This document shows positions 24,162 to 45,948 of a stretch of DNA of 64,000 bases, one piece after another. Positions within the stretch are counted from its first letter, which is position 1. Each line of letters starts with the position of its first letter. The position numbers were made by a program, and so were the translations under genes. The DNA comes from Caldithrix abyssi DSM 13497. Its GTDB lineage: Bacteria; Calditrichota; Calditrichia; Calditrichales; Calditrichaceae. The notes under the pieces were generated by a model. It was not told the origin of the DNA and ran no database searches. It saw only the letters and a list, made by a program, of their open reading frames with translations. The stretch spans positions 1 through 64,000 of the forward strand of contig NZ_CP018099.1 of NCBI RefSeq assembly GCF_001886815.1, read 5' to 3'.

Positions 24162-24190
24162 GTTGAAGGTTGGCGATTTGGAATGGATGG

Positions 24191-26041
24191 ATGAAAGTAA
24201 GTCGTTATTTTAATGCAATTTTGTTGTCTTTTCTTTTTTTAATTTTCTTTAATGGATGCAATGTTAATTATTCGTCAATTGAAGATCCACAACCATCCTG
24301 GATCGCCGACGCTGTATTTTACCAGATTTTTCCCGAACGGTTTAGAAACGGGGATCCCTCTAACGATCCCGATAAAAAATCACTCGCTGGCAGCTTTCCT
24401 CATGACACCACTTCGGAATGGCATGTAAGCCCCTGGACGGCCGACTGGTACAGGTTGCAACCCTGGGAAGAAAAAAATGGCAAGGGGCTGGCCTACAACT
24501 TACAGCGCAGGCGATACGGCGGCGATATTCAGGGAATCATCGAAAAGCTCGACTATTTAAAGGATCTGGGCATTAATGCCATCTACCTGAATCCTGTTTT
24601 CGAGTCGCCTTCGTTGCATAAATATGACGCCGCCACGCACATTCACATAGACGACAACTTTGGCCCCAATCCACAATTCGATCGCAAAATAGTACAGACC
24701 GAAGACCCGCTAAATCCGCAAACATGGAAATGGACCTCTGCCGACAGCTTATTTCTAAAACTCATACAAGAAGCCCATCGCCGAAATATTAAAATCATCA
24801 TCGACGGCGTTTTTAATCATGTGGGCATGACGCACTGGGCCTTTGTGGACGTTCAAAAAAACGGGCCAAACTCAAAGTTTAAAGACTGGTTTACCATTTT
24901 GCAATGGGATGATCCCAAAACGCCGGAGAACGAATTCCGCTACAAAGGCTGGTTTGACGTTCCGGAGTTGCCGGAATTAAAAGAAGATGAACACGGACTG
25001 ATTAAACCGATCCGGGAACATATTTTTGCCGTGGTTCAGCGCTGGATGGATCCCAATAACGACGGCGATCCTTCTGATGGCATTGACGGCTGGCGGCTGG
25101 ATGTGGCCGAAATGGTGCATCACGATTTCTGGAAATTATTTCGGATGAAAGTTAAGTCTATTAATCCGGAAGCGTACATTACGGGAGAGGTGTTCTGGGA
25201 AGATTGGAAAAATAATAAGTTGATGAATCCGGGCCCGTGGTTGCAGGGCGATGAATTTGACGGCGTAATGAACTATGAATGGGCCGCCGCAGTAACCAGA
25301 TATTTTATTGACCAAAAGAAAAAGATTAGCGCTTCGGAATTTGTCCGCCAGCTAAAAAAATTAGACGACCGTTACGCCCCGCGTTTTCAATTTCAATTAA
25401 TGAATTTAATGGACAGTCACGACACCGATCGTCTGGCCTCAAACATTGTCAATCCTGATTTATTTTACGATAAAAAAGTTTCTCCCTATGATAATCCGGA
25501 TTATCAGATCAGAAAACCCAACGCACAGGAGCGAAAAATACAGCGGCTTATTGCTCTTTTTCAGTTTACCTACCCCGGGCCGCCCATGATTTACTACGGA
25601 ACAGAAAGCGGTATGTGGGGAGGAGACGATCCGGATTGCCGTAAACCCATGGTCTGGAGCGACATGATTTATGAGCCGGAAGCGGTTACGGTGGATCAGC
25701 AACCGCGAGCAGCCGATTCGGTTTATTTTGATTATGAACTGTTTCATTATTACCGCACTCTAATTCACATAAGAAAGAACGAAATTGCCCTTCGTAAAGG
25801 CGAAATGAATGTGCTCCATTTTGACAATGACAAAGACATCTTAGCTTTTACGAGAAAGTTGGGAGACGAGCTTATTTTAATTCTCATTAACAATAATGAA
25901 CAACCGCAAGTTATTGAGCTGGATGAAATAGCTGGCCAGGATTGGCAAAATTTATTGAACGGTGAAAAAATCAAAGTTCAGAAAAATCGCCTAAAAATCC
26001 AACTGCAGGCTAAAGAAGGCGCCATTTTGAAAAGAATTTGA
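24191..26041 (+). CDS. Lipid-anchored GH13 alpha-glucan hydrolase
   Basis: A 616-residue glycoside hydrolase family 13 enzyme, expected to cut starch- or maltodextrin-type alpha-1,4 linkages. Start ATG 24191 is preferred over an upstream TTG (24170) because it begins directly with the signal peptide, which ends in FFNGC, a loose lipobox. The catalytic barrel is complete: nucleophile D304 in GWRLDVA, acid/base E333 in TGEVFWE, and stabiliser D411 in DSHDTDR. The opening DAVFYQIFPERFRNGDPSND is typical of neopullulanase/cyclomaltodextrinase-like GH13 members. Its C-terminal beta domain spans about 520-616. It begins the locus and lies one base from the PpiC-type gene. Precise linkage specificity is not readable. 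Confidence 0.9.
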   Translation: MKVSRYFNAILLSFLFLIFFNGCNVNYSSIEDPQPSWIADAVFYQIFPERFRNGDPSNDPDKKSLAGSFPHDTTSEWHVSPWTADWYRLQPWEEKNGKGLAYNLQRRRYGGDIQGIIEKLDYLKDLGINAIYLNPVFESPSLHKYDAATHIHIDDNFGPNPQFDRKIVQTEDPLNPQTWKWTSADSLFLKLIQEAHRRNIKIIIDGVFNHVGMTHWAFVDVQKNGPNSKFKDWFTILQWDDPKTPENEFRYKGWFDVPELPELKEDEHGLIKPIREHIFAVVQRWMDPNNDGDPSDGIDGWRLDVAEMVHHDFWKLFRMKVKSINPEAYITGEVFWEDWKNNKLMNPGPWLQGDEFDGVMNYEWAAAVTRYFIDQKKKISASEFVRQLKKLDDRYAPRFQFQLMNLMDSHDTDRLASNIVNPDLFYDKKVSPYDNPDYQIRKPNAQERKIQRLIALFQFTYPGPPMIYYGTESGMWGGDDPDCRKPMVWSDMIYEPEAVTVDQQPRAADSVYFDYELFHYYRTLIHIRKNEIALRKGEMNVLHFDNDKDILAFTRKLGDELILILINNNEQPQVIELDEIAGQDWQNLLNGEKIKVQKNRLKIQLQAKEGAILKRI

Positions 26042-26042
26042 G

Positions 26043-27713
26043 ATGAAAGCACAACTTAAAATAACCATAATTGCGGCGGTAATTTTTTTGACAGGTTTTA
26101 CGGCCTGTAAAAAGGAATTGAAACTCGATGAGCATACGGTGGCCATTGTGGGAGAGTACGCCATTCCTTTTGAGCAGTATGAAAATCGCTATCAGGAATA
26201 TCTGGACGTAACCTACCAGAAGGATAATCTGTTTTTGCGCCTGGGCGTGCTGCGCAACATGATTAATGAAATTTTGCTAAAACATTATGACGATAATCGG
26301 GCCATATTGAACAGCGAAGAATATCAAAACGATCAGGAATGGGTGAAAAAAGAAATGCTGCTGGCCTATTTAAAAGAGGATGATATTTACTCTAAAATCC
26401 GGGTTACGGATCAGGAGGCCAGAGAAGCCTTTGTGCGTTTAAACGAAAAAATTGCCGCGCGCCACCTTTACGCCCCAACGGAAGAAGAGGCCAATCGTTT
26501 GTACGAACTGTTAATGAAGGGCGCATCGTTTGACTCGCTGGCCAGAGAGGTTTTCACGGATTCAACGTTAAGAAGCAACGGCGGTTACCTGGGGTATTTT
26601 ACCTGGGGCGACATGGATCCGGCCTTTGAAGACGCCGCCTATCAGATGAAGATCGGCGAAATTTCAAAGCCGGTTAAAACGGCTCAGGGCTACAGCATCA
26701 TTAAAATAGAAGATCGGAAACGCGTGCCTATTTTAACGGAAACGGAGTACGTAAAGAAAAAGGGCCAGATCATTCGCTTCATAAAAATTTCTAAAAGAAA
26801 ACCGGCAGAAAAAGAATATTTACAAAAGGTGGTTGATTTAAAGGCGTTCCAATTCGATGATCAGGCGGTAGAAGATCTTTTAACAGCGCTTAAAGGCAAA
26901 CAGGAATTTGCACAGGAAGCAAAACCGATCGATTTAAGCAAAACGGTTGTTCGTTATAAAACGGAAAAATGGAATGGTTCCGAATTACTAAAAGCGATCA
27001 AAAAAATCCCTTCTTACCATCGAGATAGAATCGATTCCAGCGAAAAACTCAAAGCGGCCATCAAGGGCTTAATTGTCAATCAAAAATTGCTAAAAATTGC
27101 CGAGCAAAAAGGTTATGCCCGTTTGCCGGAGGTAAAGCATGCGCTGGCCAATGCAGAAAATAATCTTTACCTGAAGTACAAACGTAAGTACATTCTGCAA
27201 AACGCTACAGTGCCGGATTCTATTCTGCGACAATACTATCGAAAAAATATCTGGAAGTTTAAAGAGCCGCGAAAAATTAATGTTCGGGAAATTCTGGTCG
27301 CCGATTTACAGACGGCATTGAAAATTAAAAAGCAGCTTTTAGACGGCGCCGACTTTGCCCAACTGGCCCGAAAATATTCTTTAAGAGGTTGGACGGCGCA
27401 AAATGGCGGCGAAACGGGCTACGCCGAACTGGATCGATTTGGAAAGTTAAAAGACAAATTCTGGAATACGCCTGTCGGAAAAATCATCGGCCCGCTTAAA
27501 ATAGAAAATGTGTACGGCCTGTTTCGCGTGGAAGGAAAGATAGATGCGCAACCGGTTAGCTTTGAGCAAATTAAAGACCAGGTGGAAGAAGAATACAAAG
27601 GCGAAAATCAAACAGAAATCATGCGCGCCTATCTGCAAAAATTGAGAAAAAAGGTTAAAATTGAACGCAATTTAGATTTAGTCAAATCTTTTGTGCTTGA
27701 TAATAAAGAATGA
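26043..27713 (+). CDS. SurA/PpiC-type peptidyl-prolyl isomerase lipoprotein
   Basis: A 556-residue exported foldase. A signal peptide ends in TGFTAC, a good lipobox. Two parvulin (PpiC) domains are visible: one at about residues 135-230 (ARHLYAPTEEEA, then GGYLGYFTWGDMDPAFEDAAY) and a second at about 410-515 (REILVADLQTALKIK, NGGETGYAELDRFG). Helical arms flank them, as in SurA and PrsA chaperones. It starts one base after the GH13 stop and its stop overlaps the ribosome site of the TonB receptor gene. That position suggests it helps fold the outer-membrane proteins encoded next to it. This is inference from placement. Confidence 0.88.
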   Translation: MKAQLKITIIAAVIFLTGFTACKKELKLDEHTVAIVGEYAIPFEQYENRYQEYLDVTYQKDNLFLRLGVLRNMINEILLKHYDDNRAILNSEEYQNDQEWVKKEMLLAYLKEDDIYSKIRVTDQEAREAFVRLNEKIAARHLYAPTEEEANRLYELLMKGASFDSLAREVFTDSTLRSNGGYLGYFTWGDMDPAFEDAAYQMKIGEISKPVKTAQGYSIIKIEDRKRVPILTETEYVKKKGQIIRFIKISKRKPAEKEYLQKVVDLKAFQFDDQAVEDLLTALKGKQEFAQEAKPIDLSKTVVRYKTEKWNGSELLKAIKKIPSYHRDRIDSSEKLKAAIKGLIVNQKLLKIAEQKGYARLPEVKHALANAENNLYLKYKRKYILQNATVPDSILRQYYRKNIWKFKEPRKINVREILVADLQTALKIKKQLLDGADFAQLARKYSLRGWTAQNGGETGYAELDRFGKLKDKFWNTPVGKIIGPLKIENVYGLFRVEGKIDAQPVSFEQIKDQVEEEYKGENQTEIMRAYLQKLRKKVKIERNLDLVKSFVLDNKE

Positions 27714-27721
27714 GGTGTTTT

Positions 27722-30502
27722 ATGAATAACAGAATGCTAACGATTCTAAGCGCAATATTTTTCATGGCCGCAAATATCTTTGCAGGCACGACCGGAAAAA
27801 TTGCCGGAAGGGTAGTCGACAAAAGTACGGGCGAACCCTTACCCGGCGCCAATGTGTATTTAGAAGGAACGTCTTTTGGATCAACCACCGATCTTGACGG
27901 TCATTACGTGATATTAAATGTACCGCCGGGTAATTACACTATTGTGGCGCAATACATTGGGTATCAGGAAATTAAAATGACCGGCATAAAAGTTTCCATC
28001 GACCTTACTACGAGAATTGATTTCGAACTGCCCGAAACTACGCTGGAAACGACCGAAGAAATAGTGGTGGTGGGCGAACGGAAGCTCATTCAAAAAGATA
28101 TCACCTCCAGTCAGGCCAGCGTTTCATCGGAGGAGATTGATGTTTTGCCGGTTACGGAGATGACCGATGTGCTGCAGTTGCAGGCAGGTATCACGCGTGA
28201 TGCGGGCGGCGGTTTTCACATTCGCGGCGGCCGTTCCAACGAAATCTCTTATTGGGTAAACGGCGTTTCGGTAACCGATGCCTTCGATAACAGCATGGGC
28301 ATAGAGGTGGATAATAATAGTATTCAGGAACTGCAGGTCATTAGCGGAACATTTAACGCCGAGTATGGCAACGCCATGTCCGGAATTATTAACCTGGTTA
28401 CTAAAGAAGGCGGCCGTAATTACGCTGGTAATATTAAAATTTACGCCGGCGACAATTTGAGCAATTTTACGGATTATTTTTATTACATCGACCATTTCGA
28501 TCCGCTGGCAGAATACAATCTTCAATCCAGTTTAAGCGGACCGATTCCTTACACCGGTAAAAAATTAACCTTTTTTGCCAACCTGCGTTACAATAAAAAT
28601 GACGGATACCTTTACGGACAGCGGCGCTACAATCCGGACGGCAGCTGGGCCAGCGCCGACACTCTTTTGCCGGTAAGCGCCAAAGACGATCCGGAAGCGC
28701 GCTATGTGGAAAAGAACGGTAAAATTTACAAGGTGGTGCCGCCCATGAGCGGCGAACCGGTGCCCATGAATTGGAGCAAAAAATACAACGCTCAGGCCAA
28801 AATCACTTACTATGCTCTGCCCACTTTAAAATTCAACGCCGAAATTCTGTATTCCAGCCGCAATTTCCAGGATTACGATCACAGCTACAAGTGGGAACCG
28901 GACGGAAACGTTAAAAAGTATTCCGACAGTTACAACACCTGGCTTTCCATGACGCACACCATCAATCCAAAAACATTTTACACCGTTTATGGCTCCTTTT
29001 TTCAAAATGAATTTCAGGAGTATTTGTACAAAAATCCTTACGATCCGCGCTATGTTTACAGCGACACACTGCAACCCATCGCCTACGCCTTTCGCACGGC
29101 CGGCACCAACAACCATCGCTTTGATCGCATGACCAGGACGTACGGTTTAAAAATGGATTTTACCAGTCAGGTGACCAATCGGCATTTGATTAAGTTCGGA
29201 TTGGAAGGTAAATGGCACGTTTTAAACTTTGACGATTACTGGCTGCAGGCGGCGCGCGATGCCAGCGGGCAGATCATTTCGCCTTACCAGCCCATGGTTC
29301 CTGCTGATACCAGTCATATTCGCACCAAGTACACGCGCAGGCCAAGAGAATTCGCAGCCTACATTCAGGATAAAATCGAATACGAAGACATGATCATCAA
29401 TGTAGGCCTGCGCTTCGATTACTTTAATTCCAAGGGCAAGGTACTGGTAGACCCCAAAGACCCCAATATTTACTTTCCGCTGCGAGAAGGTCTGGACAAA
29501 TTGCCTTTATCGGAACGGGAAAAATATTTTTACAAAGACGCAAAGCCTAAAATGCAAATTAGTCCGCGCCTGGGTATTGCCTACCCCATCAGCGCAGACG
29601 GCGTTATCCATTTTTCTTACGGGCATTTTTTGCAAATCCCATCCTTTGTCTATCTTTTTAACAACGGTTATTATCGCGTGGGCGAAACCGGTCAGTTTTA
29701 CGGGCCTTACGGCAATCCGGATCTGGACGCCCAGCGAACGGTGATGTACGAAATCGGTTTGCAGCAGGGACTGTTCGGAGATTTTAAGATCGATGTTACT
29801 GGTTTTTACCGCGACGTCCGTAACTGGATTTCGACCAGCCCGCTTTACATTACTTACAACCGTGTAACCTATTCGCTTTACATCAATAAAGATTATGCCA
29901 ACGTTAAAGGCATAACCTTAAATTTAAAAAAGCGTTACAGCAATCATTACTCCTTTGACATCAGCTACACTTTTCAGGTTGCGGAAGGAAGTAATTCCAC
30001 GCCGGAAGAAGAATTTAACGCCGCGCGTTCTAACCTGGAACCCACGCTTATTCTTCTGCCGCTGGACTGGGATCAACGCCATCTGATCAATGGTTCCTTT
30101 TATGTGGGCGGCGACACCTGGGGCGGCAGTTTAATTGCCCGCTTTGGAACAGGTCTGCCCTACACGCCGCAGATTACGCAGTACACATCCGATCGCGGCA
30201 TTCGTTGGGGGTTGCAAAAAAATAGCAGGCGGCGCCCCAATCAGTTTAGCCTGGACTTACGTTTGCACAAAAATCTGGTTATCAATGGATTTAAGTTCAC
30301 CACCTTTGTGAACATCACGAATTTGCTGGACAACAAAATTCCGATCAACGTCTTTGCCGACACCGGCAAGCCGGACTACACCACGGTAAACGTACCGGAC
30401 GATCCCGTTAAAAGACCGAATACCGTGGAAGAATATCGAAAATATCCGTGGCACTATGCCGAGCCGCGCAGAGTTCAATTTGGCATTGATTTCAATTTTT
30501 AA
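27722..30502 (+). CDS. TonB-dependent outer-membrane receptor with CarboxypepD_reg-like N-domain (SusC-like role)
   Basis: A 926-residue outer-membrane transporter. The start at 27722 follows GAGGTG by 6 bases and begins directly with the signal peptide (MNNRMLTILSAIFFMAANIFA); an upstream in-frame ATG at 27710 would place the ribosome site inside the gene. Residues about 25-110 form a carboxypeptidase-regulatory-like domain (GKIAGRVVDKSTGEPLPGAN), then comes the plug (GGGFHIRGGRSNEISYWVNG and AEYGNAMSGIINLVTKEGG) and a beta-barrel ending in an aromatic residue (QFGIDFNF). This architecture is that of SusC-type importers. With the neighbouring glucan enzymes, uptake of malto-oligosaccharides is the likely job. 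A typical SusC is somewhat longer. Confidence 0.88.
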   Translation: MNNRMLTILSAIFFMAANIFAGTTGKIAGRVVDKSTGEPLPGANVYLEGTSFGSTTDLDGHYVILNVPPGNYTIVAQYIGYQEIKMTGIKVSIDLTTRIDFELPETTLETTEEIVVVGERKLIQKDITSSQASVSSEEIDVLPVTEMTDVLQLQAGITRDAGGGFHIRGGRSNEISYWVNGVSVTDAFDNSMGIEVDNNSIQELQVISGTFNAEYGNAMSGIINLVTKEGGRNYAGNIKIYAGDNLSNFTDYFYYIDHFDPLAEYNLQSSLSGPIPYTGKKLTFFANLRYNKNDGYLYGQRRYNPDGSWASADTLLPVSAKDDPEARYVEKNGKIYKVVPPMSGEPVPMNWSKKYNAQAKITYYALPTLKFNAEILYSSRNFQDYDHSYKWEPDGNVKKYSDSYNTWLSMTHTINPKTFYTVYGSFFQNEFQEYLYKNPYDPRYVYSDTLQPIAYAFRTAGTNNHRFDRMTRTYGLKMDFTSQVTNRHLIKFGLEGKWHVLNFDDYWLQAARDASGQIISPYQPMVPADTSHIRTKYTRRPREFAAYIQDKIEYEDMIINVGLRFDYFNSKGKVLVDPKDPNIYFPLREGLDKLPLSEREKYFYKDAKPKMQISPRLGIAYPISADGVIHFSYGHFLQIPSFVYLFNNGYYRVGETGQFYGPYGNPDLDAQRTVMYEIGLQQGLFGDFKIDVTGFYRDVRNWISTSPLYITYNRVTYSLYINKDYANVKGITLNLKKRYSNHYSFDISYTFQVAEGSNSTPEEEFNAARSNLEPTLILLPLDWDQRHLINGSFYVGGDTWGGSLIARFGTGLPYTPQITQYTSDRGIRWGLQKNSRRRPNQFSLDLRLHKNLVINGFKFTTFVNITNLLDNKIPINVFADTGKPDYTTVNVPDDPVKRPNTVEEYRKYPWHYAEPRRVQFGIDFNF

Positions 30503-30517
30503 ATAGAGAGGTGATTC

Positions 30518-33500
30518 ATGAGACAGGTGATAAAGATATTGTCGCTTATATGGTTGCTCTTTTTTATGACTCAAAGCCTGTTCGCACAAAACAATCAAAT
30601 TACGCACGTTCCTTCCAAGGAACGCGGCGACCCCAAGTATCGTCGTAAGGCGCAGTTAGAAGGCAACAACATTCGTACAACGATCTTCAATTTCGGACAT
30701 ACGGGCCGCACCGGCGCGGTGCCCATTTATGAAGAAACGCCTTACGAATGGCCTAAAAACACCGGCAAGGTTTATCTGGCGCAAACGACCATCTGGTGGG
30801 GCGCCGAAGTCATTGACGAAAACGGCGAAAAACAACGCATCGTCATTGTGGACAATGGCCGAACTTCCGACGAAGGGAAAAGCTGGAATATTGAGCCCTG
30901 TCCGGGTTACTTTAACCCCAACTCAAACAGCATTGCCAATAGCGTCGATCCGAGCACCTGGCCGGAGTACTGGCCGGACAAAATGAACATCGACCCGGAA
31001 AGCGGTTCGGAACCGGGCTGGCCGGGAAGCTGGAATGGTTATTTTGGGCAGGACAAATTTAACGCTGATCAGGAATTGTTCTACCGCGCATCGGACGACC
31101 GCTACGATAATTATCTCTATTTTCCGGATTCAACCGACAAAACGCGCCACGGGCTGGGCATTTTGATGGATGTGCGGGCCATGGCCTGGTCGCAGATTCT
31201 GGTGAGCGATGTGGTTTATCTGCTGCACTTTTTGAAAAACGACGGAACCAAAGATATTGAAAAATTTGCCGTTACCTTTGGCGTGGCCGATTTTGTGGGC
31301 GGCGATGGCGATTCCCAGGACGACATCTCCGAATTCGACCTGTTAGAAGACATCATGTGGAGCCGCGATTCAGACAATAAGGCGCCCACTTTTGGAAAAG
31401 ACCCCGTGGGCATTGTAGGCGTGGCCCTGTTAGAAACTCCGGGCAACGCGCACGATCGCATCGACAATGACGGCGACGGCGAAGAAGGCGGGCCCAAAGT
31501 TACCGAAGAGATGCTGCAGGGCGAAGGCACAGCGGAAATTCTGGACAATCCCGGCGATCAGCGTAATGCCAACGGCATTGACGATAACCGCAACGGCCTG
31601 ATCGATGAAACCATTGCGCACATTCCTTTTGCCGGCCAGGTGGGCGTGACCTACGCAGATGGCATTGACGCTAACGGTAATGCCGAAGAAGGCAGCCCGC
31701 TGGTAACCGTTGAAATGGTTGACCTGGCCAAAACCGATCAGGTAACGGTGGACGGCGAAACCTACTACTGGAATCGCTGGCCAGCCAATGTGGAAAGCGA
31801 TCCCATTCAAAACGGTCAAATTCACCTGACCATGGTGGACGAAACCGATATTGGCAAAGCTTTTAAAGACTACATCGATAACAATGGCAACGGCGAAGAT
31901 AACAGTCCGGTGGTTACGCAGGAAATGATCGACGCCGCCGCTCAGGACGCGCCTTATTATCGCTATCGTGTTCCAAACAGCAATATCATTCTTTATGATT
32001 TAAAAGCCGAAGACCTGGGTAAGAAATATGCCGACGGCATAGATAACGACGGCGACGGAGCCGTCGATGAAGATATCGATGAAGGCATCGACGAGATGAT
32101 CGACGAACGGCGCGATGATTTTATCGATAATGACGGCGACTGGAACCCCATTTTAGATGACGTTGGAATCGATGGCATTGCCGGCACCAACGACCTGGGC
32201 GAGGGCGACGGCAAACCAACTTCCGGCGCGGCAACGGATGATCCTGGCGAACCGAATATTGACGACACCGATATCTCTGAAACGGATCAAATCGGTATTT
32301 CCGCTTCTGCCAGAACGCCGGCAGGCGGTTTAAACCTGAACAGCGACGCCACCCTGTGGTTCGATTTTATGATCCCGGGAAAATTTTACGATCCCAGAAC
32401 GGTGCTCGCCGGCGAATACGACCTGTGGGTGACATCCGGCTACTTTCCCATTAAGGCCGGACAAACCGAACCCATTTCGGTGGCCGTAATCCTGGCCAAT
32501 GCCAATCAGAACGATCCCAACGGCGAGCTGCGCAAACAGGCGGTGCTAAAGAAACGCGTTCGCGCGCAGGAAACTTACAACAACGATTATCAGTTTGCCA
32601 ACGCGCCCATTACGCCCAAATTGACGGCCGTACCCGGCGACAATAAAGTTACGCTGTACTGGGACGACCTGGCAGAACAATCGTTCGACAACTACATCTA
32701 CAAAATAGGCGGAAATCCCTATGATTTTGAAGGATACCGCATCTACCGCGCAACCGATCCGGCTTTTCAGGATCCGCTGGAAATTACCGATGCCTTCGGT
32801 ACCCTGCGCTTTAGAAATCCGATTGCTCAGTTTGACTTGATAGACGGCATCACCGGCCTGGATTCAGTGGGCATTGACGGAGCCAACTTTTATCTGGGCA
32901 ATGACAGCGGCTTACGCCACACCTTTGTGGACTCTTCTGTGAAGAACGGATTTACCTATTACTATGCCATTACCTCTTATGATTTTGGTTATCCGGCAGG
33001 GGGCATTTTGCCGACCGAAAGTCCAATCCGCGTGAATCTGCAACCGGATGGTTCGGTAATTTTAGGCCCCAATGTGGTGCGCGTAACGCCGGAGGCGCCT
33101 GCGGCAGGATATGTTCCGGCCACTCTGGGCACCATTGAGCACGAAGAGGGTTCTTCAACAGGCAGAATTTCTTATGAAATAATCGACCCCAATAAAATTA
33201 AAGACGGCCATGTATATTACATAACTTTTGAAGACACCTTAAAGCCGGGCAAGCCTGGTAAGCCAGACACCCTGACCACAAAGAGTTACACTCTGGTCGA
33301 TTCCACTGCCGATTCGGTGCTGGTCTGGAAAAGCCCGCACCTGGAAGAAGACTTTGAACAGCCCTTAACTGATGGCTTTCGTTTGCATTTTGTCAACGAG
33401 GATCAGGTGGGTATTAATGCCAATCTTTCCGGCTGGCGGCCAAAAGACGTGAACATCCCGGCCTTTACCTTTCAGAAGTTAACGCAGAGCGTTGGCCCGG

Positions 33501-34288
33501 AAGGTGAGTTCAGAGTCAATGACTATTTGATCCTTTTTGGCGATGTGGGCATGGCCACATCCTTACCGGGCGTCTATGAAGGCAACTATTATGATTCAAA
33601 AGAGGTGAACTTTAAAATAATCAATCTTAACACCAATGAGCCTGTAGATTTTGTGTTTGTGGAAAACGATACCATTGGAACGCCGCCGGGCGTATTCTCT
33701 TCTAACTACCGCATAATAAAGCTGGGCAATACAGAAATTAAAATTCCCTATAAAGATGTTATTGCCTTTCTGGAGCCGAAGACTGTAAACGACCGCGATA
33801 CACTGGTTTATACCTGGCAGTTCTATTTGAGCTCCATTCCGGATTCGACCCAAAGAATACCGGCTGCTGGCGATACGGCGAAGATAATTCTCAAAAAACC
33901 GTTCCTCTCGCAGGATGTGTACCGCTTTGTGGCCCGGGGCAGCTACATCAACAAAAGAGAAGCTAAAAACGATATGGATCGAATTAAAGTAGTGCCCAAT
34001 CCTTATGTTGCCACGGCAGAATGGGAACCGCGCAATCCGTACAATTCCGGTCGCGGGCCACGTTCCATCCACTTTACGCATTTACCGGCAAAATGCACCA
34101 TTCGTATTTTTACGGTAAACGGAGAGCTGGTGCGCAAAATAGAGGTGGATAATCCGGAAGATAACGGAACGGCCTACTGGGATTTATTGACCAAAGACCA
34201 TCTGTCGGTTTCTTACGGCGTTTACATCTACCATGTTGAGGCGCCGGGAATCGGTGAAAAAGTCGGCAAATTTGCCATTATTAAATAG
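30518..34288 (+). CDS. Large secreted Asp/Gly-rich surface protein, possible receptor partner
   Basis: A 1256-residue exported protein with a signal peptide ending at SLFAQ. The middle (about residues 310-580) repeats calcium-loop-like motifs of the form DNDGDG, DDNRNG, DANGN, DNNGNG and DNDGDW, resembling thrombospondin type 3 or EF-hand-like loops. A fibronectin type III-like segment follows (PKLTAVPGDNKVTLYWDD). The C-terminus (about 1155-1256) resembles a type IX sorting domain: VVPNPYV, IRIFTVNGELVRKIE, YGVYIYHVEAPG, ending GKFAIIK. It lies 15 bases after the TonB receptor and just before a PorV-like gene. It takes the place SusD has in Bacteroidetes loci but shows no SusD signature. Function is unknown; a receptor-associated surface role is inferred. 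Confidence 0.6.
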   Translation: MRQVIKILSLIWLLFFMTQSLFAQNNQITHVPSKERGDPKYRRKAQLEGNNIRTTIFNFGHTGRTGAVPIYEETPYEWPKNTGKVYLAQTTIWWGAEVIDENGEKQRIVIVDNGRTSDEGKSWNIEPCPGYFNPNSNSIANSVDPSTWPEYWPDKMNIDPESGSEPGWPGSWNGYFGQDKFNADQELFYRASDDRYDNYLYFPDSTDKTRHGLGILMDVRAMAWSQILVSDVVYLLHFLKNDGTKDIEKFAVTFGVADFVGGDGDSQDDISEFDLLEDIMWSRDSDNKAPTFGKDPVGIVGVALLETPGNAHDRIDNDGDGEEGGPKVTEEMLQGEGTAEILDNPGDQRNANGIDDNRNGLIDETIAHIPFAGQVGVTYADGIDANGNAEEGSPLVTVEMVDLAKTDQVTVDGETYYWNRWPANVESDPIQNGQIHLTMVDETDIGKAFKDYIDNNGNGEDNSPVVTQEMIDAAAQDAPYYRYRVPNSNIILYDLKAEDLGKKYADGIDNDGDGAVDEDIDEGIDEMIDERRDDFIDNDGDWNPILDDVGIDGIAGTNDLGEGDGKPTSGAATDDPGEPNIDDTDISETDQIGISASARTPAGGLNLNSDATLWFDFMIPGKFYDPRTVLAGEYDLWVTSGYFPIKAGQTEPISVAVILANANQNDPNGELRKQAVLKKRVRAQETYNNDYQFANAPITPKLTAVPGDNKVTLYWDDLAEQSFDNYIYKIGGNPYDFEGYRIYRATDPAFQDPLEITDAFGTLRFRNPIAQFDLIDGITGLDSVGIDGANFYLGNDSGLRHTFVDSSVKNGFTYYYAITSYDFGYPAGGILPTESPIRVNLQPDGSVILGPNVVRVTPEAPAAGYVPATLGTIEHEEGSSTGRISYEIIDPNKIKDGHVYYITFEDTLKPGKPGKPDTLTTKSYTLVDSTADSVLVWKSPHLEEDFEQPLTDGFRLHFVNEDQVGINANLSGWRPKDVNIPAFTFQKLTQSVGPEGEFRVNDYLILFGDVGMATSLPGVYEGNYYDSKEVNFKIINLNTNEPVDFVFVENDTIGTPPGVFSSNYRIIKLGNTEIKIPYKDVIAFLEPKTVNDRDTLVYTWQFYLSSIPDSTQRIPAAGDTAKIILKKPFLSQDVYRFVARGSYINKREAKNDMDRIKVVPNPYVATAEWEPRNPYNSGRGPRSIHFTHLPAKCTIRIFTVNGELVRKIEVDNPEDNGTAYWDLLTKDHLSVSYGVYIYHVEAPGIGEKVGKFAIIK

Positions 34289-34326
34289 AGCGCTTTTAAA
34301 GAACCGAGAAAGTGAAGGAGAAAAAA

Positions 34327-35355
34327 GTGCGCAAAATAAAGATGATTTTTAAGACCCTGATAATGATCATATTGATCAGCGCTCTGGCGCAGGCGCAGGG
34401 CGTGACCAAAACCGGGACAACGGCCGGTAAGTTTTTAAGCGTGGGCATCGGGCCGCGGGCCATTGCCATGGGCGGCGCTTTTACTTCCAGCGCCAATGAT
34501 GCAACGGCCATGTACTGGAATCCCGCCGGCATCGATCAGATTCCCACCAATCAGTTTGTGTTTACGCAAACCGATTGGTTTGTGGACATCAAAGTCAATT
34601 TTGTTGGAGCGGTTTTCAAAGCTGGCGAACTGGGAACGGTGGGCGTTCACATGACGGCCATGACCATGGGAGACATGGAGGTGACCACCACTAAAAATCC
34701 GGAGGGCACCGGCGACTATTTTTCTGCAGGCATGTACGCTTTTGGTTTTTCTATTGCCCGCCATTTAACGCAGAAGTTTACCATTGGCGCCAATGTCAAA
34801 TACATCCGCGAAACCATTTCCCAATCCGCGGCGCACGGCTTAGCGCTGGATATTGGAACCATGTTTATCACGCCGTTTTATGGCGTTCGTCTGGCGGCGA
34901 ATATTAGCAATTTTGGAACCAAGATGCGCATGTCTGGCGAGGACCTGTTGATTCAGCACGACCCCAATCCGAACATTGCCGGCGACAACGCCAACCTGAA
35001 CGCCTATTACGAAACGGAGAGTTTTGAACTGCCCTTGCGTGTGCAAATTGGCCTGGCGCGCGATTTTTATCCGGTTGACGGACAGCGCCTCACCCTGGCC
35101 GTGGAGGCGGCGCATCCCAATGATAATTCGGAGTATATGAATCTGGGCGGCGAGCTGGCCCTGTTTAAAGAACGTGTTTTTATCCGCGGCGGTTTTAAGT
35201 CTTTGTTCATGAAAGACCGGGAAGAAGGATTGACCCTGGGCGTTGGTTATCGTACGCCGCGCCTTGGCCGCTTTCACTTAAATATCGACTATTCTTTTCA
35301 AGATTTTGTACATCTGGGCGATGTACACACCTTTGGTTTTATTTTAACCTTTTAA
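34327..35355 (+). CDS. PorV/PorQ-family outer-membrane beta-barrel protein
   Basis: A 342-residue predicted barrel of the PorV/PorQ (FadL-like) family. In type IX secretion systems PorV shuttles cargo at the outer membrane. The start is taken as GTG 34327, with AAGGAG seven bases upstream; a GTG at 34312 would overlap that site. A signal peptide (ending ALAQAQG) leads into the family hallmark FLSVGIGPRAIAMGGAFTS followed by NDATAMYWNPAGI. The end alternates strands and closes with FGFILTF. It lies directly after the large surface protein and before another sorting-domain protein, so it may serve these two. It could also be a non-T9SS family member. Confidence 0.85.
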   Translation: MRKIKMIFKTLIMIILISALAQAQGVTKTGTTAGKFLSVGIGPRAIAMGGAFTSSANDATAMYWNPAGIDQIPTNQFVFTQTDWFVDIKVNFVGAVFKAGELGTVGVHMTAMTMGDMEVTTTKNPEGTGDYFSAGMYAFGFSIARHLTQKFTIGANVKYIRETISQSAAHGLALDIGTMFITPFYGVRLAANISNFGTKMRMSGEDLLIQHDPNPNIAGDNANLNAYYETESFELPLRVQIGLARDFYPVDGQRLTLAVEAAHPNDNSEYMNLGGELALFKERVFIRGGFKSLFMKDREEGLTLGVGYRTPRLGRFHLNIDYSFQDFVHLGDVHTFGFILTF

Positions 35356-35439: not shown

Positions 35440-37674
35440 ATGAAGAAATTCGGCTTACTAATGTTAGCGCTTGTGTTCATGGCTTTTGCCAGCGCACAGG
35501 CAGTCAATGTTACCTTCAATTTAAGCATGAAGGTAAAAGTGCAGATGGGCGAATTTGATCCCATGACGCAGCACGTAAGGATTACCGGTAATCTGGTGGA
35601 TCCGAACTGGAGCCCGGCTGACGCGCCGATTCTGGATCTGGTTGATTCTGTAAATTACATCTACAGTACAACGCTGGATATCGCGCAGGGAAACTATGAA
35701 TACAAATATCTGATTGGCGACGCCTGGGGCAACGACGAGCTGCAGGGACAACCAAACCGTACTTTGACGGTTGGCGATACGGACATGAACCTGGACCTGG
35801 TTTACTACAACGATATGATGGCCGTGCCGTTTGATCCCGCGCCGGCAGGTATGGTTAACGTGATGCTCAGCGTTAACATGACGCGCTGGATTCAAAAAGG
35901 CGCTTTTGATCCGGATAATGAGGTGGTGCGCGTAACCGGCACTATTACTGACCCTCAGTGGGACCCGGCCAATGCACCGATTTTACAGGACCCAGATGGT
36001 AACTTTGTTTACACCACCACGCTGCAGGTTGCGCCTGGTGATTATGAATATAAGTTCTTGATTGGCGATGCCTGGGGCCGCGATGAATTACAGGGTCAGC
36101 CCAATCGCGCTATCACTGTTGTAGCCGATACCGCTGTTTTCCCCGTGTATTTCGACAACGAACCGTATGTGGAAAATCCGCCGGTAAGCACCGATTCTGT
36201 AATGCTGACCTTGAACGTGAACATGCGCGTTCAGGTGCTGGAAGGCAATTTTGATCCGACCAATGATTTTGTTGTAGCAGCCGGTTCCTTCCAGGGCTGG
36301 AATCCTGCAGCTTCTGCTCCGATGGATGATTCTGACGGCGACAGCATTTACACTGGAACCTACAAAGTGCCTTCTAATGCGCGCTACGAATACAAGTTTG
36401 TCATTAATGCCAGCAACTGGGAATCCACTCCCAACCGCGCCGTTGTGGTGGACACGACGGATAAAGAAGTGCCTCCGGTTTATTTCAATGATGATAGTGT
36501 TGTAACGATTAAGAAAAATGGTAATGTTAAGTTTTCCGTCAATACCGATGTGCTGATCGAAGTTGGCCTTTTTGATCCTTCGGTTGACTCGGTACATGTT
36601 CGTGGCAGCTTCAATGGTTGGAATTCCGACGATCCTGCCCGTTCGCACATGAATCAGAACCTGAGCAATCCGTTGAACTGGTTCTTAAATGTTCCGTTTG
36701 AGTCGTTTGGCGTTGGCGATCCGCTCTATTACAAATTCTGGATTAAAAAAGCGGATAACGTTATCAACGGCGTGGCCTGGAACGATACCTGGGAACGTCC
36801 GACGCACACAGGCGGCGGCAATCGCACCGCTTATTTTGAGGGAACCGACAATCAGGAAATTGAAGCCGATTATTACGATCACATTCAGCCCGATTGGGTT
36901 GTACCGGAAGGAACGGGCCTGAAGGTAACCTTTAACGTGGATATGAGCCCGGCGGCCGATCCCAACTTGCAGCCGATTCCTTTTACCGCTGGTCAGGACA
37001 CCGTATGGTGGATCTGTGAACAGCCCGCTTTTTGCGTAACCCAGGGCTGGGAAGACACCGATGAAATGAAAGTATTGCCTTTGACCGACCCCGATGGCGA
37101 CATGATTTATTCCGGAACTCTGGAAGTTCAAGAGCCTGCCTGGAACGGCTTTGTGTATCGTTATGCCTTTATTTCCGAAAGCGACGGCAGAACCTGGCAG
37201 TTTGAGCCGGCCGGTTTCGCCAACTTTGCCTATCGCGCGCGCTTTGTTGGTCAGGATGCTGAGCGCAGCTTTCCGTTCAAAGAGTGGAATATGCCGGTGG
37301 ATACCTGGACCAACGCGGAATTGAAGACCGATGATCAGGAAACCGATCCTTACACTTCGCTTACTGCCATTGGCGACACGCCGCAAACGCCAAGAGAATT
37401 TACCCTGAACCAGAACTATCCGAATCCCTTCAACCCGACCACGACCATTAGCTTTACCTTACCGGAAGCTTCTCGTGTGACGTTGTCGGTTTACAATGTG
37501 CTGGGACAAAAAGTCCGCACGTTGATTGACAACCAGCTGGCCACTGCCGGTACGCACGCCAAACAGTGGGATGGTCGCGATGAAGCAGGCCACAAAGTGG
37601 CGTCCGGAATCTACTTCTACAAACTGGAAGCGGGCGACTTCTCTTCTATTAAAAAGATGGTTTTAATGAAATAA
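35440..37674 (+). CDS. Surface protein with five starch-binding-like modules and a T9SS-type sorting domain
   Basis: A 744-residue secreted protein. After a signal peptide (ends FASAQA) come five tandem beta-sandwich modules at about residues 23-130, 132-240, 245-350, 355-475 and 480-615. They share a VxFxVNM-like opening strand, a GxFDP turn, a module-central GSFxGWN or similar, and a YEYKF(L)I strand, the pattern of E-set/CBM48- or CBM20-like glucan-binding domains. The C-terminal sorting domain (about 655-744) begins FTLNQNYPNPFNPTTTI and ends KKMVLMK. No catalytic motif is present. It probably holds alpha-glucan on the cell surface, the role SusE and SusF have in Bacteroidetes. An AAGGAGG site precedes the ATG. 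Confidence 0.8.
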   Translation: MKKFGLLMLALVFMAFASAQAVNVTFNLSMKVKVQMGEFDPMTQHVRITGNLVDPNWSPADAPILDLVDSVNYIYSTTLDIAQGNYEYKYLIGDAWGNDELQGQPNRTLTVGDTDMNLDLVYYNDMMAVPFDPAPAGMVNVMLSVNMTRWIQKGAFDPDNEVVRVTGTITDPQWDPANAPILQDPDGNFVYTTTLQVAPGDYEYKFLIGDAWGRDELQGQPNRAITVVADTAVFPVYFDNEPYVENPPVSTDSVMLTLNVNMRVQVLEGNFDPTNDFVVAAGSFQGWNPAASAPMDDSDGDSIYTGTYKVPSNARYEYKFVINASNWESTPNRAVVVDTTDKEVPPVYFNDDSVVTIKKNGNVKFSVNTDVLIEVGLFDPSVDSVHVRGSFNGWNSDDPARSHMNQNLSNPLNWFLNVPFESFGVGDPLYYKFWIKKADNVINGVAWNDTWERPTHTGGGNRTAYFEGTDNQEIEADYYDHIQPDWVVPEGTGLKVTFNVDMSPAADPNLQPIPFTAGQDTVWWICEQPAFCVTQGWEDTDEMKVLPLTDPDGDMIYSGTLEVQEPAWNGFVYRYAFISESDGRTWQFEPAGFANFAYRARFVGQDAERSFPFKEWNMPVDTWTNAELKTDDQETDPYTSLTAIGDTPQTPREFTLNQNYPNPFNPTTTISFTLPEASRVTLSVYNVLGQKVRTLIDNQLATAGTHAKQWDGRDEAGHKVASGIYFYKLEAGDFSSIKKMVLMK

Positions 37675-37752: not shown

Positions 37753-39564
37753 ATGGCCTTAATTGATTATTTGATTGTCGTTGTGTATTTAACGAGTATG
37801 GTATTTGTGGGGCTTTACTTTAGTAAAAAGGCCTCGCAAGGGATTAACTCTTACTTTTTGGGAGAACGCGGCATGCCGTGGTGGGCGCTTGGCGCTTCGG
37901 GCATGGCTTCTAACCTGGATATTTCCGGTACAATGATTAATACCGCCTTTGTGTTTGCTCTTGGATTAAGCGGCTTTTTTATCGAAATCCGTGGCGGAGT
38001 AACTCTGATCATGGCCTTTTTAATGATCTTTCAGGGAAAATGGAACCGGCGGGCGCTGGTGATGACCCTGGCCGAGTGGATGAGTTTTCGCTTTGGTAAA
38101 GATCGGCAGGGCGATGTGGCGCGTCTGGTCGCTGCTGTCTCCGTGATCATAGTTACTATTGCCATGATAACCTACTTTGCTATTGGCGCAGGAAAGTTTG
38201 TGGGCGAATTTCTGGGCATTCCCTCGTTCTGGGGGCTTTCTTCGGAATTTTGGGCGGCTACTTTGATGATTGTGCTGGCCATGATTTACACGGTGGCCAG
38301 CGGACTGTACGGCGTGGTCTGGACGGATGTTTTTCAGGGCGTGCTGATTTTTTTCACCATCATTTATATTTGCGTTTTAGCCTTTACACAGTTTAACCTG
38401 CCGGAGGTGTTCAACGTTTCGGTGCCCTTGAAAGACGGCGGATTTTTAACGCTGCCGACTACCAAAGAAGCCTGGACCAGCGTTATTCCGCACTGGAAAT
38501 TGAATTTACCGCCCGAATCAGCTTATTCTATTTACAACCTGTTTGGAATTGCCATTTTGTTTTACCTGTTAAAAGTGACCCTGGAAGGCAGCGGCGGAAC
38601 CAGCCAGTACATGATTCAACGCTTTTTTGCCTCCCGCAGCGACCGAGAGGCTGGCCTGCTCTCATTATTCTGGACGTTTTTGCTGGGCTTTCGCTGGCCC
38701 TTTATTGCAGCCATTGCCATGATGGGCGTAGTGTTTGGCACACAGCAGGGCGTTATTGCCGATCCGGAAAAAGTTTTGCCCGTGGTGGTAAATCAACTGG
38801 TGCCCATCGGCTTAAAAGGATTGATGGTGGCCGGTTTAATGGCGGCGGCCATGTCCACCTTTGATTCAACGGTCAACGCCGGCGCCGCTTACTGGGTGAA
38901 GGATATTTACCAGGCCTACATCAACCCAAAGGCAACGGAAAAAACCTTGATGCTGCACAGCCGACTGGCATCCGTGGGCATCGTTGTCCTTGGTCTGGGA
39001 TTTATGCTGATCATAAAAAACATCAATGAAATATGGGGCTGGATTACATCTAGCCTTGGAGCGGGCATGCTTATTCCCACCCTGGCGCGCTGGTACTGGT
39101 GGCGCATGAACGGCTACGGTTTTGCCGTGGGCACGATTGCCGGTATGGTAGCGGCCATCATTCAAAAGACCTTTATCCCCGGCGTGCCGGAATACGTTTC
39201 GTTTACGATTGCCACGCTGGCCTCTCTGGTCGGTTTGATTGTGGGCACTTACTCCGGGCCGCCGGCAAAAGAGGAGGTCTTGTTCGAGTTTTACAAGCGC
39301 ACCCGTCCTTTCGGCTTCTGGGGGCCGGTGCGCAAAAAATTAGGCCCGGAAGTACTGGCTCAAATCGATAAAGAAAATCGCAGAGACATTCTTTCGACCT
39401 TTTTCGCCGTTCCCTGGCAGATTGTACTTTTTCTGACAGGCATGACGCTGATTGTTAGGCGCTGGGATGAATTCTGGATTCTTTCTTTTGTTTTAATGGG
39501 CTTATCTATTGCGCTCTATTTTAGCTGGTTTCGCCATTTATCCACAGAAGTTAAAGTCGATTAA
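37753..39564 (+). CDS. Sodium:solute symporter (SSS family)
   Basis: A 603-residue inner-membrane transporter with about 13-14 predicted helices, belonging to the SSS family (SGLT/PutP-like, LeuT fold). Features are the N-terminal DYLIVVVYLTSMVFVGLYFSKK, the GERGMPWWALGASGMASNLDISGT segment (the conserved sodium-site region) and the AMSTFDSTVNAGAAYWVKDIY loop typical of the family. It uses a sodium gradient to import a solute. Its place between the starch-binding protein and the maltose-type ABC genes suggests a sugar substrate, perhaps glucose or maltose, but the family also carries many other solutes. GGGGAG precedes the ATG. Confidence 0.9.
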   Translation: MALIDYLIVVVYLTSMVFVGLYFSKKASQGINSYFLGERGMPWWALGASGMASNLDISGTMINTAFVFALGLSGFFIEIRGGVTLIMAFLMIFQGKWNRRALVMTLAEWMSFRFGKDRQGDVARLVAAVSVIIVTIAMITYFAIGAGKFVGEFLGIPSFWGLSSEFWAATLMIVLAMIYTVASGLYGVVWTDVFQGVLIFFTIIYICVLAFTQFNLPEVFNVSVPLKDGGFLTLPTTKEAWTSVIPHWKLNLPPESAYSIYNLFGIAILFYLLKVTLEGSGGTSQYMIQRFFASRSDREAGLLSLFWTFLLGFRWPFIAAIAMMGVVFGTQQGVIADPEKVLPVVVNQLVPIGLKGLMVAGLMAAAMSTFDSTVNAGAAYWVKDIYQAYINPKATEKTLMLHSRLASVGIVVLGLGFMLIIKNINEIWGWITSSLGAGMLIPTLARWYWWRMNGYGFAVGTIAGMVAAIIQKTFIPGVPEYVSFTIATLASLVGLIVGTYSGPPAKEEVLFEFYKRTRPFGFWGPVRKKLGPEVLAQIDKENRRDILSTFFAVPWQIVLFLTGMTLIVRRWDEFWILSFVLMGLSIALYFSWFRHLSTEVKVD

Positions 39565-39573
39565 AATAAGGAT

Positions 39574-40896
39574 TTGAGCAAAAAATATGCTGGCAAAAAA
39601 ATGAGTTTTCCACAATTAAAAGCAGATAAAAATATCTTTGCTAACAAGAATCAAATAATAAAAAAATGGGTAACAATCATACACCATATTGTAATAATTT
39701 TAATAATTACAATAGGTTGTGCGCAGAAAACCGAAAAAATCGTTGTGTGGACTTCCATGAGGCCTCTGGAGCGGCAACTATTGGACTCACTTTTGCACGA
39801 GTTTTCCACAACTTACCCACAATACCGCTTTGTGCAGTTGTTTTACGCCCCGGAAGAGGCCCGCACCAATTTTATTATTAGTTCGCTGGCAGGCAAAGGG
39901 CCGGCTTTAATCCACGGCGCCAATGACAATATCGGCCCGTTTGTGGAGCTGGGCGTCATTCAGCCCATGGAAGACTATTTCAGTCAAAGCGAACTGGACG
40001 AATTTTTAGACGATCCGTTTCCGGCCAATACCTATTTTAAGGGACATCTTTATCAGGTTGCCGATCGGGTTGGCAATCATCTGTGTCTGGTTTACAATAA
40101 AAAGCTGGTAAAAAAGCCGCCGCAAACCATGCATGAGTTGATTGAAATGGGTAAAAAGTTAACGGTGGATGAAAACGGCGACGGACGTCCTGAGCGCTAT
40201 GCCATCGCCTGGAATTACACTGAGCCCTTTTTCTTTGTGCCGTTTATTACCGGCTATGGCGGCTGGCTGTTTGACGATCAGTATCGACCGACTTTAAACA
40301 CCGAGGCGACAAAGAAGGCGGCGCAGTTAATTTATGACCTGGTGAATAAATACAAGATCATGCCCAAAGAAGCGGATTACGAAATTGCCAACGCCCTTTT
40401 TAAAGATGGGCTGGCGGCGATGATTATTAACGGCCCCTGGTCGTGGAGCACCTATTTAAAAAACAACATTCCCATCGGTATTGCCAGAATTCCAAAGATT
40501 GATGAAACGGGTTTGTGGCCGGCGCCGCTGGTTTCGCCCATGGGCTATTCATTGAATAAAAATTTAACAGGAGAGAAGCTGCAGGTTACCGTAAAGTTAT
40601 TAAAATTTTTAACCAGCGATTCGGTACAACTGCGCTTTACAAAATTAAGCGGCTCCATTCCCTCGCGTAAAACGGCCTTTAAAGACAGCCTGGTGCAGAA
40701 CAATGAAATCATAAGAGCCGCGCTGGACCAATTGTTAGTGGGCAGGCCCATGCCGGTAATTACCGAAATGCGCTGGATCTTTGACGCCATGCGTCCGGCC
40801 TACCAGGGCATTTTTACCGGTCAGGTAACCCCGGAAGAAGCGGTGGAGCAAATGCAAAAACTGGCGGAAAAACTAATCAGGGAGAACCGTGAGTAG
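39574..40896 (+). CDS. ABC transporter sugar-binding lipoprotein (maltose-type)
   Basis: A solute-binding protein of family 1 (MalE-like), 440 residues from the TTG at 39574. The true start is uncertain: no well-placed ribosome site precedes 39574, and the ATG at 39601 is possible. A hydrophobic segment ends in ITIGCAQK, a lipobox, so it is anchored outside the inner membrane. The mature part begins KIVVWTSMRPLERQLLD and contains VYNKKLV, the DENGDGRPERYAIAWNY loop and AAMIINGPWSW, all usual for MalE-type proteins. It overlaps the first permease gene by 8 bases. The likely ligand is a malto-oligosaccharide, from context. Confidence 0.88.
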   Translation: MSKKYAGKKMSFPQLKADKNIFANKNQIIKKWVTIIHHIVIILIITIGCAQKTEKIVVWTSMRPLERQLLDSLLHEFSTTYPQYRFVQLFYAPEEARTNFIISSLAGKGPALIHGANDNIGPFVELGVIQPMEDYFSQSELDEFLDDPFPANTYFKGHLYQVADRVGNHLCLVYNKKLVKKPPQTMHELIEMGKKLTVDENGDGRPERYAIAWNYTEPFFFVPFITGYGGWLFDDQYRPTLNTEATKKAAQLIYDLVNKYKIMPKEADYEIANALFKDGLAAMIINGPWSWSTYLKNNIPIGIARIPKIDETGLWPAPLVSPMGYSLNKNLTGEKLQVTVKLLKFLTSDSVQLRFTKLSGSIPSRKTAFKDSLVQNNEIIRAALDQLLVGRPMPVITEMRWIFDAMRPAYQGIFTGQVTPEEAVEQMQKLAEKLIRENRE

Positions 40897-41782
40897 CACC
40901 ATTTTCAGTCGGAATAATCGCCTGGTTTATCTTTACGTTATGCCGGCAATCATCGTGATGAGTTTGATTGTGTTGTGGCCCTTTTTGTACAACGTGGTCA
41001 TCTCCTTATCAAACATGAATCTGACGCATTTTAAAGACTGGCGGATTGTTGGGCTTAACAACTACTGGGCGGTGCTGAGCGACGGCACTTTTTGGTACTT
41101 CTTTTTCAAAACCATTTTGTGGACGGTTTTAAATCTGATTTTTCATGTGGGCATTGGCGTGATGCTGGCTTTAATCATTAATGAGGATATTAAGGCCAAA
41201 TCGTTTTTTCGCACCTTGCTTATTCTACCCTGGGCCGTTCCGCAGTACATCACCGCCTTAACGTGGCGCGGCATGTTTAACAGCGAATACGGAGCGATTA
41301 ACATTTTGTTAGGGCGCTTGTTTGGCATCGAGCTTCCCTGGCTTTCCACGGAATGGGGCGCCTTTGCCGCCTGTTTGATTACCAACATCTGGCTGGGTTT
41401 TCCCTTTATGATGATTGTGGCGCTGGGCGCGCTACAAAGCATTCCGCGCAGCCTTTACGAAGCGGCCGAAATTGACGGCGCTTCCCGCTGGCAGCAGTTT
41501 AAAAACATTACGGTGCCGTTAATCAAGCCCGTAATGGTGCCGGCCATTACGCTGGGCGTAATATGGACGTTTAATAATTTTAATGTGGTCTGGCTGGTCA
41601 GCAACGGCGGCGAGCCTTCGGACAAAACGCATATTCTGGTTTCATGGGTTTACAAAGCCGGTTTTACCTATTTCCGGATGGGCTACGCCGCAGCCTTTTC
41701 TATGGTAATCTTTTTTATTTTATTGATTTTTAGCTGGCGCTTTATCATGAAGACCAAGGCAACGGAGAACGTTTATTCTTAA
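40889..41782 (+). CDS. ABC transporter permease, MalF-like
   Basis: A 297-residue inner-membrane permease with six predicted helices. The cytoplasmic EAA loop that contacts the ATPase is present (YEAAEIDGASRWQQFKNITVPLI). It starts at GTG 40889 with GGGAG upstream, overlapping the binding-protein gene, and is followed 9 bases later by its MalG-like partner. It lacks the long periplasmic P2 loop of E. coli MalF, as most sugar permeases do. No ATP-binding subunit is encoded anywhere in the window, so it must use an ATPase from elsewhere. Confidence 0.93.
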   Translation: MSSTIFSRNNRLVYLYVMPAIIVMSLIVLWPFLYNVVISLSNMNLTHFKDWRIVGLNNYWAVLSDGTFWYFFFKTILWTVLNLIFHVGIGVMLALIINEDIKAKSFFRTLLILPWAVPQYITALTWRGMFNSEYGAINILLGRLFGIELPWLSTEWGAFAACLITNIWLGFPFMMIVALGALQSIPRSLYEAAEIDGASRWQQFKNITVPLIKPVMVPAITLGVIWTFNNFNVVWLVSNGGEPSDKTHILVSWVYKAGFTYFRMGYAAAFSMVIFFILLIFSWRFIMKTKATENVYS

Positions 41783-41791
41783 GGCAGTAAT

Positions 41792-44606: not shown

Positions 44607-44617
44607 TAAGGAATTGG

Positions 44618-45943: not shown

Positions 45944-45948
45944 GTTTA

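Follow-up and report, generated by a model that had tools for sequence, protein, structure and literature searches.

The first 64 kb of the 4,978,541-base, single-contig genome of Caldithrix abyssi DSM 13497 (the window) hold three consecutive forward-strand genes, which we call REC, BIG and PORV. REC (27710..30502) encodes a TonB-dependent receptor of 930 amino acids (aa) with a CarboxypepD_reg N-terminal extension and a plug domain (Pfam PF13715/PF07715), which scores 87.4 bits against the SusC model TIGR04056, under the curated cut-off of 368. BIG (30518..34288) starts 15 nucleotides (nt) past the REC stop and is an open reading frame (ORF) of 1256 aa matching no Pfam family at E<=0.1; we propose it as a surface partner of the receptor. 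PORV (34312..35355), downstream of BIG, encodes a 347-aa outer-membrane barrel of the PorV/PorQ family, passing NF033709 with 183.7 bits (cut-off 90). PORV is not a PorQ equivalog (NF033711, 94.3 bits against a cut-off of 220) and obtains 55 bits with the PorV model, and the profile of its family matches PDB PorV 6h3i_F at E 2.7e-27. The ORF coordinates and the NF033709 score agree with an earlier note on this DNA, which had placed the large protein 15 bases after a TonB receptor and a PorV-like gene behind it. The three genes recur as a unit, and the evidence below leans towards their products being joined in one outer-membrane complex.

The trio is repeated within this genome. In the own-genome stretches chosen for holding hits, 17 receptors exceed 400 bits with the receptor profile; 16/17 have a BIG-type protein downstream and 16/17 have PORV. 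BIG homologues occur here in two lengths: eight trios have the long form, of 930-1256 aa, and the short form measures 590-730 aa. Eight paralogous trios co-diverge, with r 0.92 for REC-BIG (4/5000 permutations as high) and 0.87 for BIG-PORV (8/5000), which fits a unit, although operon inheritance alone could yield the same. Partial distance correlations over 100 trios are highest between REC and PORV (0.53) and between REC and the N-domain of BIG (0.51), followed by the C-terminal domain (CTD) of BIG with PORV (0.30), the remaining three lying at 0.12-0.16; among the eight own paralogs these values are noisy and differ (REC-CTD 0.80, REC-PORV -0.01).

In other genomes the same arrangement prevails. 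The best 80 loci from named genomes, covering Calditrichota, Ignavibacteria, Rhodothermales, Marinimicrobia, KSB1, WOR-3 and Gemmatimonadetes records, are nearly all REC-BIG-PORV, the exceptions being L090, L092 and the second BIG of L093. A less biased set of 210 loci with 213 BIG genes was drawn from the match lists of Calditrichota and of the phylum of an Ignavibacteriales genome (G040), by taking every fourth Calditrichota row (rows 8-84), 30 loci of the G040 phylum, every third row from the bottom of that phylum's list and then most of the remaining listed rows; these are best-scoring matches, not every homologue. A neighbour was testable when it was found or when more than 300 nt of room was left for it, and REC was sought within 4.5 kb upstream. 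On this basis REC lies upstream of BIG in 202/208 testable cases and PORV is present in 202/209, one PORV miss (L153) being an overlap artefact. A strict count that includes all genes and allows at most 400 nt gives 192/213 for REC and 195/213 for PORV. The median REC-BIG and BIG-PORV gaps are 19 and 15 nt. The order is REC-PORV-BIG in L110, L141 and L196, two BIGs follow each other in L084 and L140, and REC-BIG-PORV gene fusions were absent from the loci then collected. The suggestion in the earlier note that receptor, large protein and PorV-like protein are a reusable trio is borne out by these counts, both within and beyond the genome, and homologues are clearly not found mostly without a TonB receptor neighbour. 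We regard the trio as a unit with high confidence. At E<=1e-30, BIG is found in 39/40 Calditrichota genomes and in 63/148 genomes of the G040 phylum, with copy numbers that are lower bounds (20 or 5 candidates scored per genome). BIG is the common receptor partner in Calditrichota.

The position of BIG had been likened to that of SusD, and in this respect the comparison stands, since BIG is encoded right after a TonB receptor in the cases of the strict count; in fold and lipidation it is not SusD-like. SusD has a helical (TPR-like) fold. By sequence reading, the signal peptide of BIG (residues 1-24, 30518..30589) lacks a lipobox Cys, and a lipobox-like motif occurs in just 3/198 full-length homologues. 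A SusD homologue as the identity of BIG was rejected on fold, lipobox and Pfam PF07980. The same family has 0 matches in the whole C. abyssi genome and in three other genomes of the genus.

Structure prediction gives BIG a mostly beta architecture with few short helices (AlphaFold2 model of residues 25-1155, pLDDT 87.7, pTM 0.77; model of residues 680-1256, pLDDT 91.4, pTM 0.83). The N-terminal part is predicted to be a beta-supersandwich of the carbohydrate-enzyme, galactose mutarotase-like type. It comprises a first part at about residues 36-314 (30623..31459) and a remainder at about 594-689 (32297..32584), the latter placed by model strands 570-636 and alignment ranges, both with approximate limits. 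Its best structural match is dextran dextrinase 9ju0 (VIA Z 19.3, 260 residues aligned, root-mean-square deviation (rmsd) 3.1), and further matches are the N-domains of glycoside hydrolase (GH) families GH94, GH15, GH116 and GH65 and galactose mutarotase (GalM 4bze, Z 13.0). A fold missing from the structure-search listing, such as SusD or dockerin, is not thereby excluded. Inside the supersandwich is located an insert, partly of low pLDDT, at about residues 315-593 (31460..32296), with six EF-hand/dockerin-like Asp loops. These are the six Dx[DN]x[DN][GAW] sites at residues 316, 355, 384, 454, 509 and 537; composition shuffles of BIG contain 0.91 such sites on average, and 0/2000 reach six. 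A first count of at least five DxDGDG-like loops holds for the relaxed motif, while exact DxDGDG is found in only two of the six. Asp 316/318/320 of the first loop are invariant across 76 aligned BIG homologues, and the loops may bind calcium, a reading to which we give moderate to low confidence. A fibronectin-III-like (FN3) module, also anticipated, is recovered by fold at about residues 694-859 (32597..33094; model residues ~15-180), with VIA Z ~8.3-9.0 to FN3 modules and without a Pfam match.

BIG ends in GKFAIIK, and the proposed sorting-type C-terminus proved to be a domain of the type IX secretion system (T9SS) kind, at residues 1148-1256 (33959..34285). Its nearest structures are the CTDs of PorZ (5m11, VIA Z 11.5, 93 residues aligned, rmsd 2.5, 26% identity) and PorU (6za2, Z 9.4). 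The CTD part of NF052228 matches BIG (E 4e-4, 18.9 bits), far below the whole-protein cut-off of 260, and the canonical type A CTD models TIGR04183/PF18962 (Por_Secre_tail) do not match BIG at E<=0.1. The CTDs of receptor-linked proteins in this genome mostly group apart from the canonical NYPNPFNP type, and a few short-form BIG-type CTDs score about equal with both CTD profiles. The secretion machinery is present, with an SprA frame at 909.5 bits and PorU at 789.1 bits. The CTDs of PorU and PorZ are reported to be retained and to bind PorV and PorQ, respectively (PMC10202324, PMC5562754). By analogy, BIG would be delivered by the T9SS and would retain its CTD. The genome also contains a partial second PorU-like protein beside a further PorV-like match (G000:C1 4423618-4427973), the full PorU lying at 4539630.

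Covariation between the three proteins was analysed in 266 assembled trios, of which 259 were used and 256 remained after near-duplicate removal (Meff80 224). We applied two estimators, mean-field covariation and pseudo-likelihood (fit halted at 60 steps, residual gradient 15.6), with random re-pairings as controls. When PORV was compared with ten successive windows of BIG by the mean-field estimator, the CTD was the sole outlier (top score 11.9, top-ten mean 9.0, 14 pairs above 6); none of the others went beyond a top of 7.8, a top-ten mean of 5.8 or 4 pairs above 6. With 139 trios the CTD window already ranked first, less clearly (10.7 vs 9.8). On a common scale, the real CTD-PORV top is 12.3 and the maximum over 16 random re-pairings 7.6, and pseudo-likelihood recovers the same leading pairs. 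In window numbering these are BIG V1249-PORV V91, K1251-G120, V1235-A139, F1198-H334, A1165-Y233 and E1203-D271.

The barrel also covaries with the receptor. The mean-field REC-PORV pairs 607-180 (15.7), 739-201 (10.3), 713-236 (10.3) and 735-143 (8.8) exceed the control maximum of 7.9 over 10 re-pairings, and the first three lead in pseudo-likelihood too (17.3, 13.1, 9.0). Two of them swap charges: REC 739-PORV 201 reads E-K in 118 trios, with the charges reversed to K-D or K-E in another 32, and REC 713-PORV 236 pairs R/K with D/E in most trios; in the window they correspond to E759-K204 and K733-E239. Since intra-protein couplings place PORV 201 next to 236 and REC 711 next to 739, the two salt bridges would sit side by side. 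By reading of the strands, the outer strand ends would hold these bridges and the inner ones Y625-T183. Neighbour-swapped controls top at only 2.5-3.3, which sequences repeated by the swap may partly explain. We consider the predicted CTD-PORV and REC-PORV contacts to have good support in the alignments. As PORV covaries both with the CTD and with REC, it looks like the physical joint between receptor and BIG. The earlier note had cast the PorV-like protein as a delivery accessory, a role that gives way here to the suggested physical link; its idea of BIG as a receptor partner survives in altered form, with a suggested connection through PORV in place of direct covariation.

Taken together, we favour, as the probable though by no means certain account, a REC-PORV-BIG outer-membrane complex that would be an alternative to SusCD, with BIG as its outer, substrate-side subunit. 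BIG, made with a signal peptide, would cross the outer membrane via the type IX system and keep its CTD seated on the PORV barrel, in the way that PorQ carries PorZ and PorV carries PorU. PORV would dock laterally onto the REC barrel, so that the calcium-stabilised supersandwich of BIG could stand over or beside the receptor mouth and capture or pass on the ligand, which at the starch locus would be alpha-glucan oligomers. The conserved Asp loops, the sorting C-terminus and the presence of SprA and PorU suit the surface-attached partner that had been envisaged. Our confidence in the lid action and the ligand, as in calcium, is moderate to low. A bolder version, which we put forward tentatively and judge somewhat more apt to fail than to hold, makes PORV a permanent subunit of REC-PORV-BIG trimers in which the supersandwich, delivered by the T9SS and stabilised by calcium, is hinged on PORV, opening and closing over the receptor. 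In Calditrichota, Ignavibacteria, Marinimicrobia, KSB1 and their relatives, such trimers would be an independently built second pedal bin of the SusCD kind.

Several results weigh against such a complex. No direct REC-BIG covariation was seen, as none of the window pairs exceeded an inter-score of 7 in runs of 36/40 and then 30 pairs, and direct REC-BIG contact by covariation was set aside. The depth of the covariation is modest, and a joint reduced-alphabet inversion of the three proteins was given no weight, its permuted controls reaching 22.3 vs 19.4 for the real data. The supersandwich is a predicted fold, and the capture of glycans by BIG is putative. In the own genome, the receptor of L033 has PORV and no BIG after it, and that of L038 has BIG and no PORV. 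Subtilases adjoin two of the own trios (L030, L031), and glycans may therefore not be the only ligand. Finally, SusD and BIG coexist in some genomes, so the two partners are not mutually exclusive: PF07980 is over its cut-off in 19/40 Calditrichota genomes, with 1-3 copies, and among six other BIG-holding genomes checked, one has SusD.

The best-surviving rival, which we nevertheless regard as unlikely, holds that PORV merely shuttles BIG from the SprA translocon to the surface and that BIG then binds glycans there by itself, sharing a transcript with REC without forming a complex with it. The lack of REC-BIG covariation suits it, and in F. johnsoniae dedicated PorP/SprF shuttles of type B CTD proteins are described as established (PMC12618676). 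Charge-swapping covariation with REC would, however, not be expected of a shuttle that has nothing to do with the receptor, and the order of the trio is maintained across phyla. Still less probable is that BIG is ordinary T9SS cargo, its CTD cleaved by PorU before the protein is glued to lipopolysaccharide or released. PorU and SprA are indeed present, and canonical cargo is abundant in the genome, but the CTD of BIG differs from the genome's canonical type A and misses Por_Secre_tail, its nearest structures belong to PorZ and PorU, whose CTDs are reported to be kept (PMC10202324), and it covaries with its own PORV. Canonical type A cargo was rejected as the identity of BIG, its CTD grouping apart from the canonical type. 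That BIG acts as an enzyme, related to glycoside hydrolases or phosphorylases and supplying the receptor instead of serving as its binding partner, is very improbable: its N-domain has the fold of the GH94/GH65/GH15/GH116 N-domains and galactose mutarotase, but the matches span ~210-275 residues, the sandwich domain alone, the mostly-beta model shows no catalytic (alpha/alpha)6 domain, and BIG matches no Pfam family.

The favoured REC-PORV-BIG complex resembles several known systems in part. It shares with SusCD the SusC-like N-extension, a TonB receptor gene with a dedicated surface-partner gene behind it, glycan loci and many paralogues per genome. It differs in that BIG is a mostly-beta protein, does not belong to the lipoproteins, bears a T9SS CTD and seems to connect with the receptor via PORV, and in that SusD was not found in this genome by the PF07980 search. 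With PorZ-PorQ and PorU-PorV it has in common the CTD fold, a PorV/PorQ-family barrel as holder, matched by CTD-barrel covariation in the trio, and CTD retention, reported for PorU and PorZ (PMC10202324, PMC5562754) and supposed for BIG. In contrast to these pairs, the trio works for a TonB receptor and has many paralogous copies, and the head of BIG is neither a sortase nor the PorZ propellers. In the beta-barrel assembly machinery of Bacteroidota, the FadL-family barrel BamG is described as lying against BamA and holding BamH (PMC12578637); that layout, in which a FadL-family barrel at the side of a large barrel holds a surface protein with its outer loops, is shared by the proposed complex, but the BAM system is an assembly machine and BamH is a lipoprotein. 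PORV scores 15.3 bits against the BamG model NF053685. Type B CTD proteins and their PorP/SprF-like partners likewise combine a cognate surface protein with a barrel, often from adjacent genes (PMC9143113, PMC12618676), the differences being the type B CTD, the PorP/SprF family and a role as adhesins rather than receptor partners.

A search of open-licence PubMed Central papers did not find the trio as a described system. The order of its genes has been published once, in the alginate locus tonB-hypA-hypB of Rhodothermus marinus, where a TonB receptor, a T9SS CTD protein (2181 nt) and a PorV/PorQ protein (1056 nt) follow in the order REC-BIG-PORV (PMC9530828); there the middle protein is shorter, named 'hyp' and left without comment in the figure legend. 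In a xylan locus of R. marinus, CTD and hypothetical proteins are reported to come after a TonB receptor, with a SusC/SusD pair standing separately in the same locus (PMC6987092). In the C. abyssi genome, one receptor class, of which the analysed stretches contain 17 members, has no SusD partner available by the PF07980 search of the whole genome, and the trio of receptor, T9SS protein and PorV barrel recurs across many lineages of the Fibrobacteres-Chlorobi-Bacteroidetes group. If the three proteins form one complex, many genes annotated as 'hypothetical', 'sorting domain' or 'PorV/PorQ family' would gain a function, PorV-family barrels a novel role, and TonB-driven uptake of large molecules a second design. 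The proposed complex also makes specific and inexpensive predictions, as it names residue pairs that could be exchanged and complexes that could be purified.

The trio in the window stands in a starch locus on the forward strand. Upstream lie a lipoprotein-like GH13 alpha-amylase (24170..26041; Pfam PF00128, lipoprotein signal by reading) and a double-PPIC peptidyl-prolyl isomerase assigned by Pfam (26043..27713), which opens the conserved neighbourhood. The isomerase gene is immediately 5' of REC in 24/24 testable cases among the 35 closest loci (L045-L079) and is perhaps a folding helper dedicated to the trio. Immediately 3' of PORV, in 28/31 testable cases among the same loci, is a gene for a CBM20/X25 starch-binding protein (35440..37674; PF00686, TIGR04183), which, unlike BIG, matches the canonical type A CTD model. 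An SSF symporter, ABC sugar importer genes, an esterase, a TrmB regulator and 2 further GH13 enzymes follow (37753..48961). SSF, esterase, TrmB and GH13 were assigned by Pfam, and the three ABC genes (39574-42637) were named by reading and by similarity to an SBP_bac_1 protein. The ligand of the trio is taken as starch because of this alpha-glucan gene context. C. abyssi is reported to grow on starch, cellobiose, glucomannan and xyloglucan (PMC5317091).

Other trios of the genome vary in content and context. In L033 (6191-10085, reverse strand) the receptor is followed directly by PORV and a 707-aa BIG-type protein lies upstream, an arrangement that fits direct REC-PORV pairing. From L031 17161 to L032 8418 (G000:C1 ~987,000-997,400), three BIG-type genes of 1100-odd residues stand in tandem after a complete trio, with no receptors interspersed, and could be swap-in partners for one receptor. 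A short-form trio in L034 has a 313-aa lipoprotein-like ORF without a Pfam match (15430-16371) between the receptor and the BIG-type protein. The trio of L028 has GH18, GH3 and CBM9 in its context, and the secreted subtilase-type proteases at L030 17955-20000 and L031 1386-4802 hint at peptide import by some trios. Elsewhere in the window, a DDE transposase of 528 aa is encoded on the reverse strand (50714-52300); ORFs of the same length lie at L027 13661-15247 and L030 2018-3604, these two agreeing with each other in their first residues, and the transposase is probably a multicopy insertion element.

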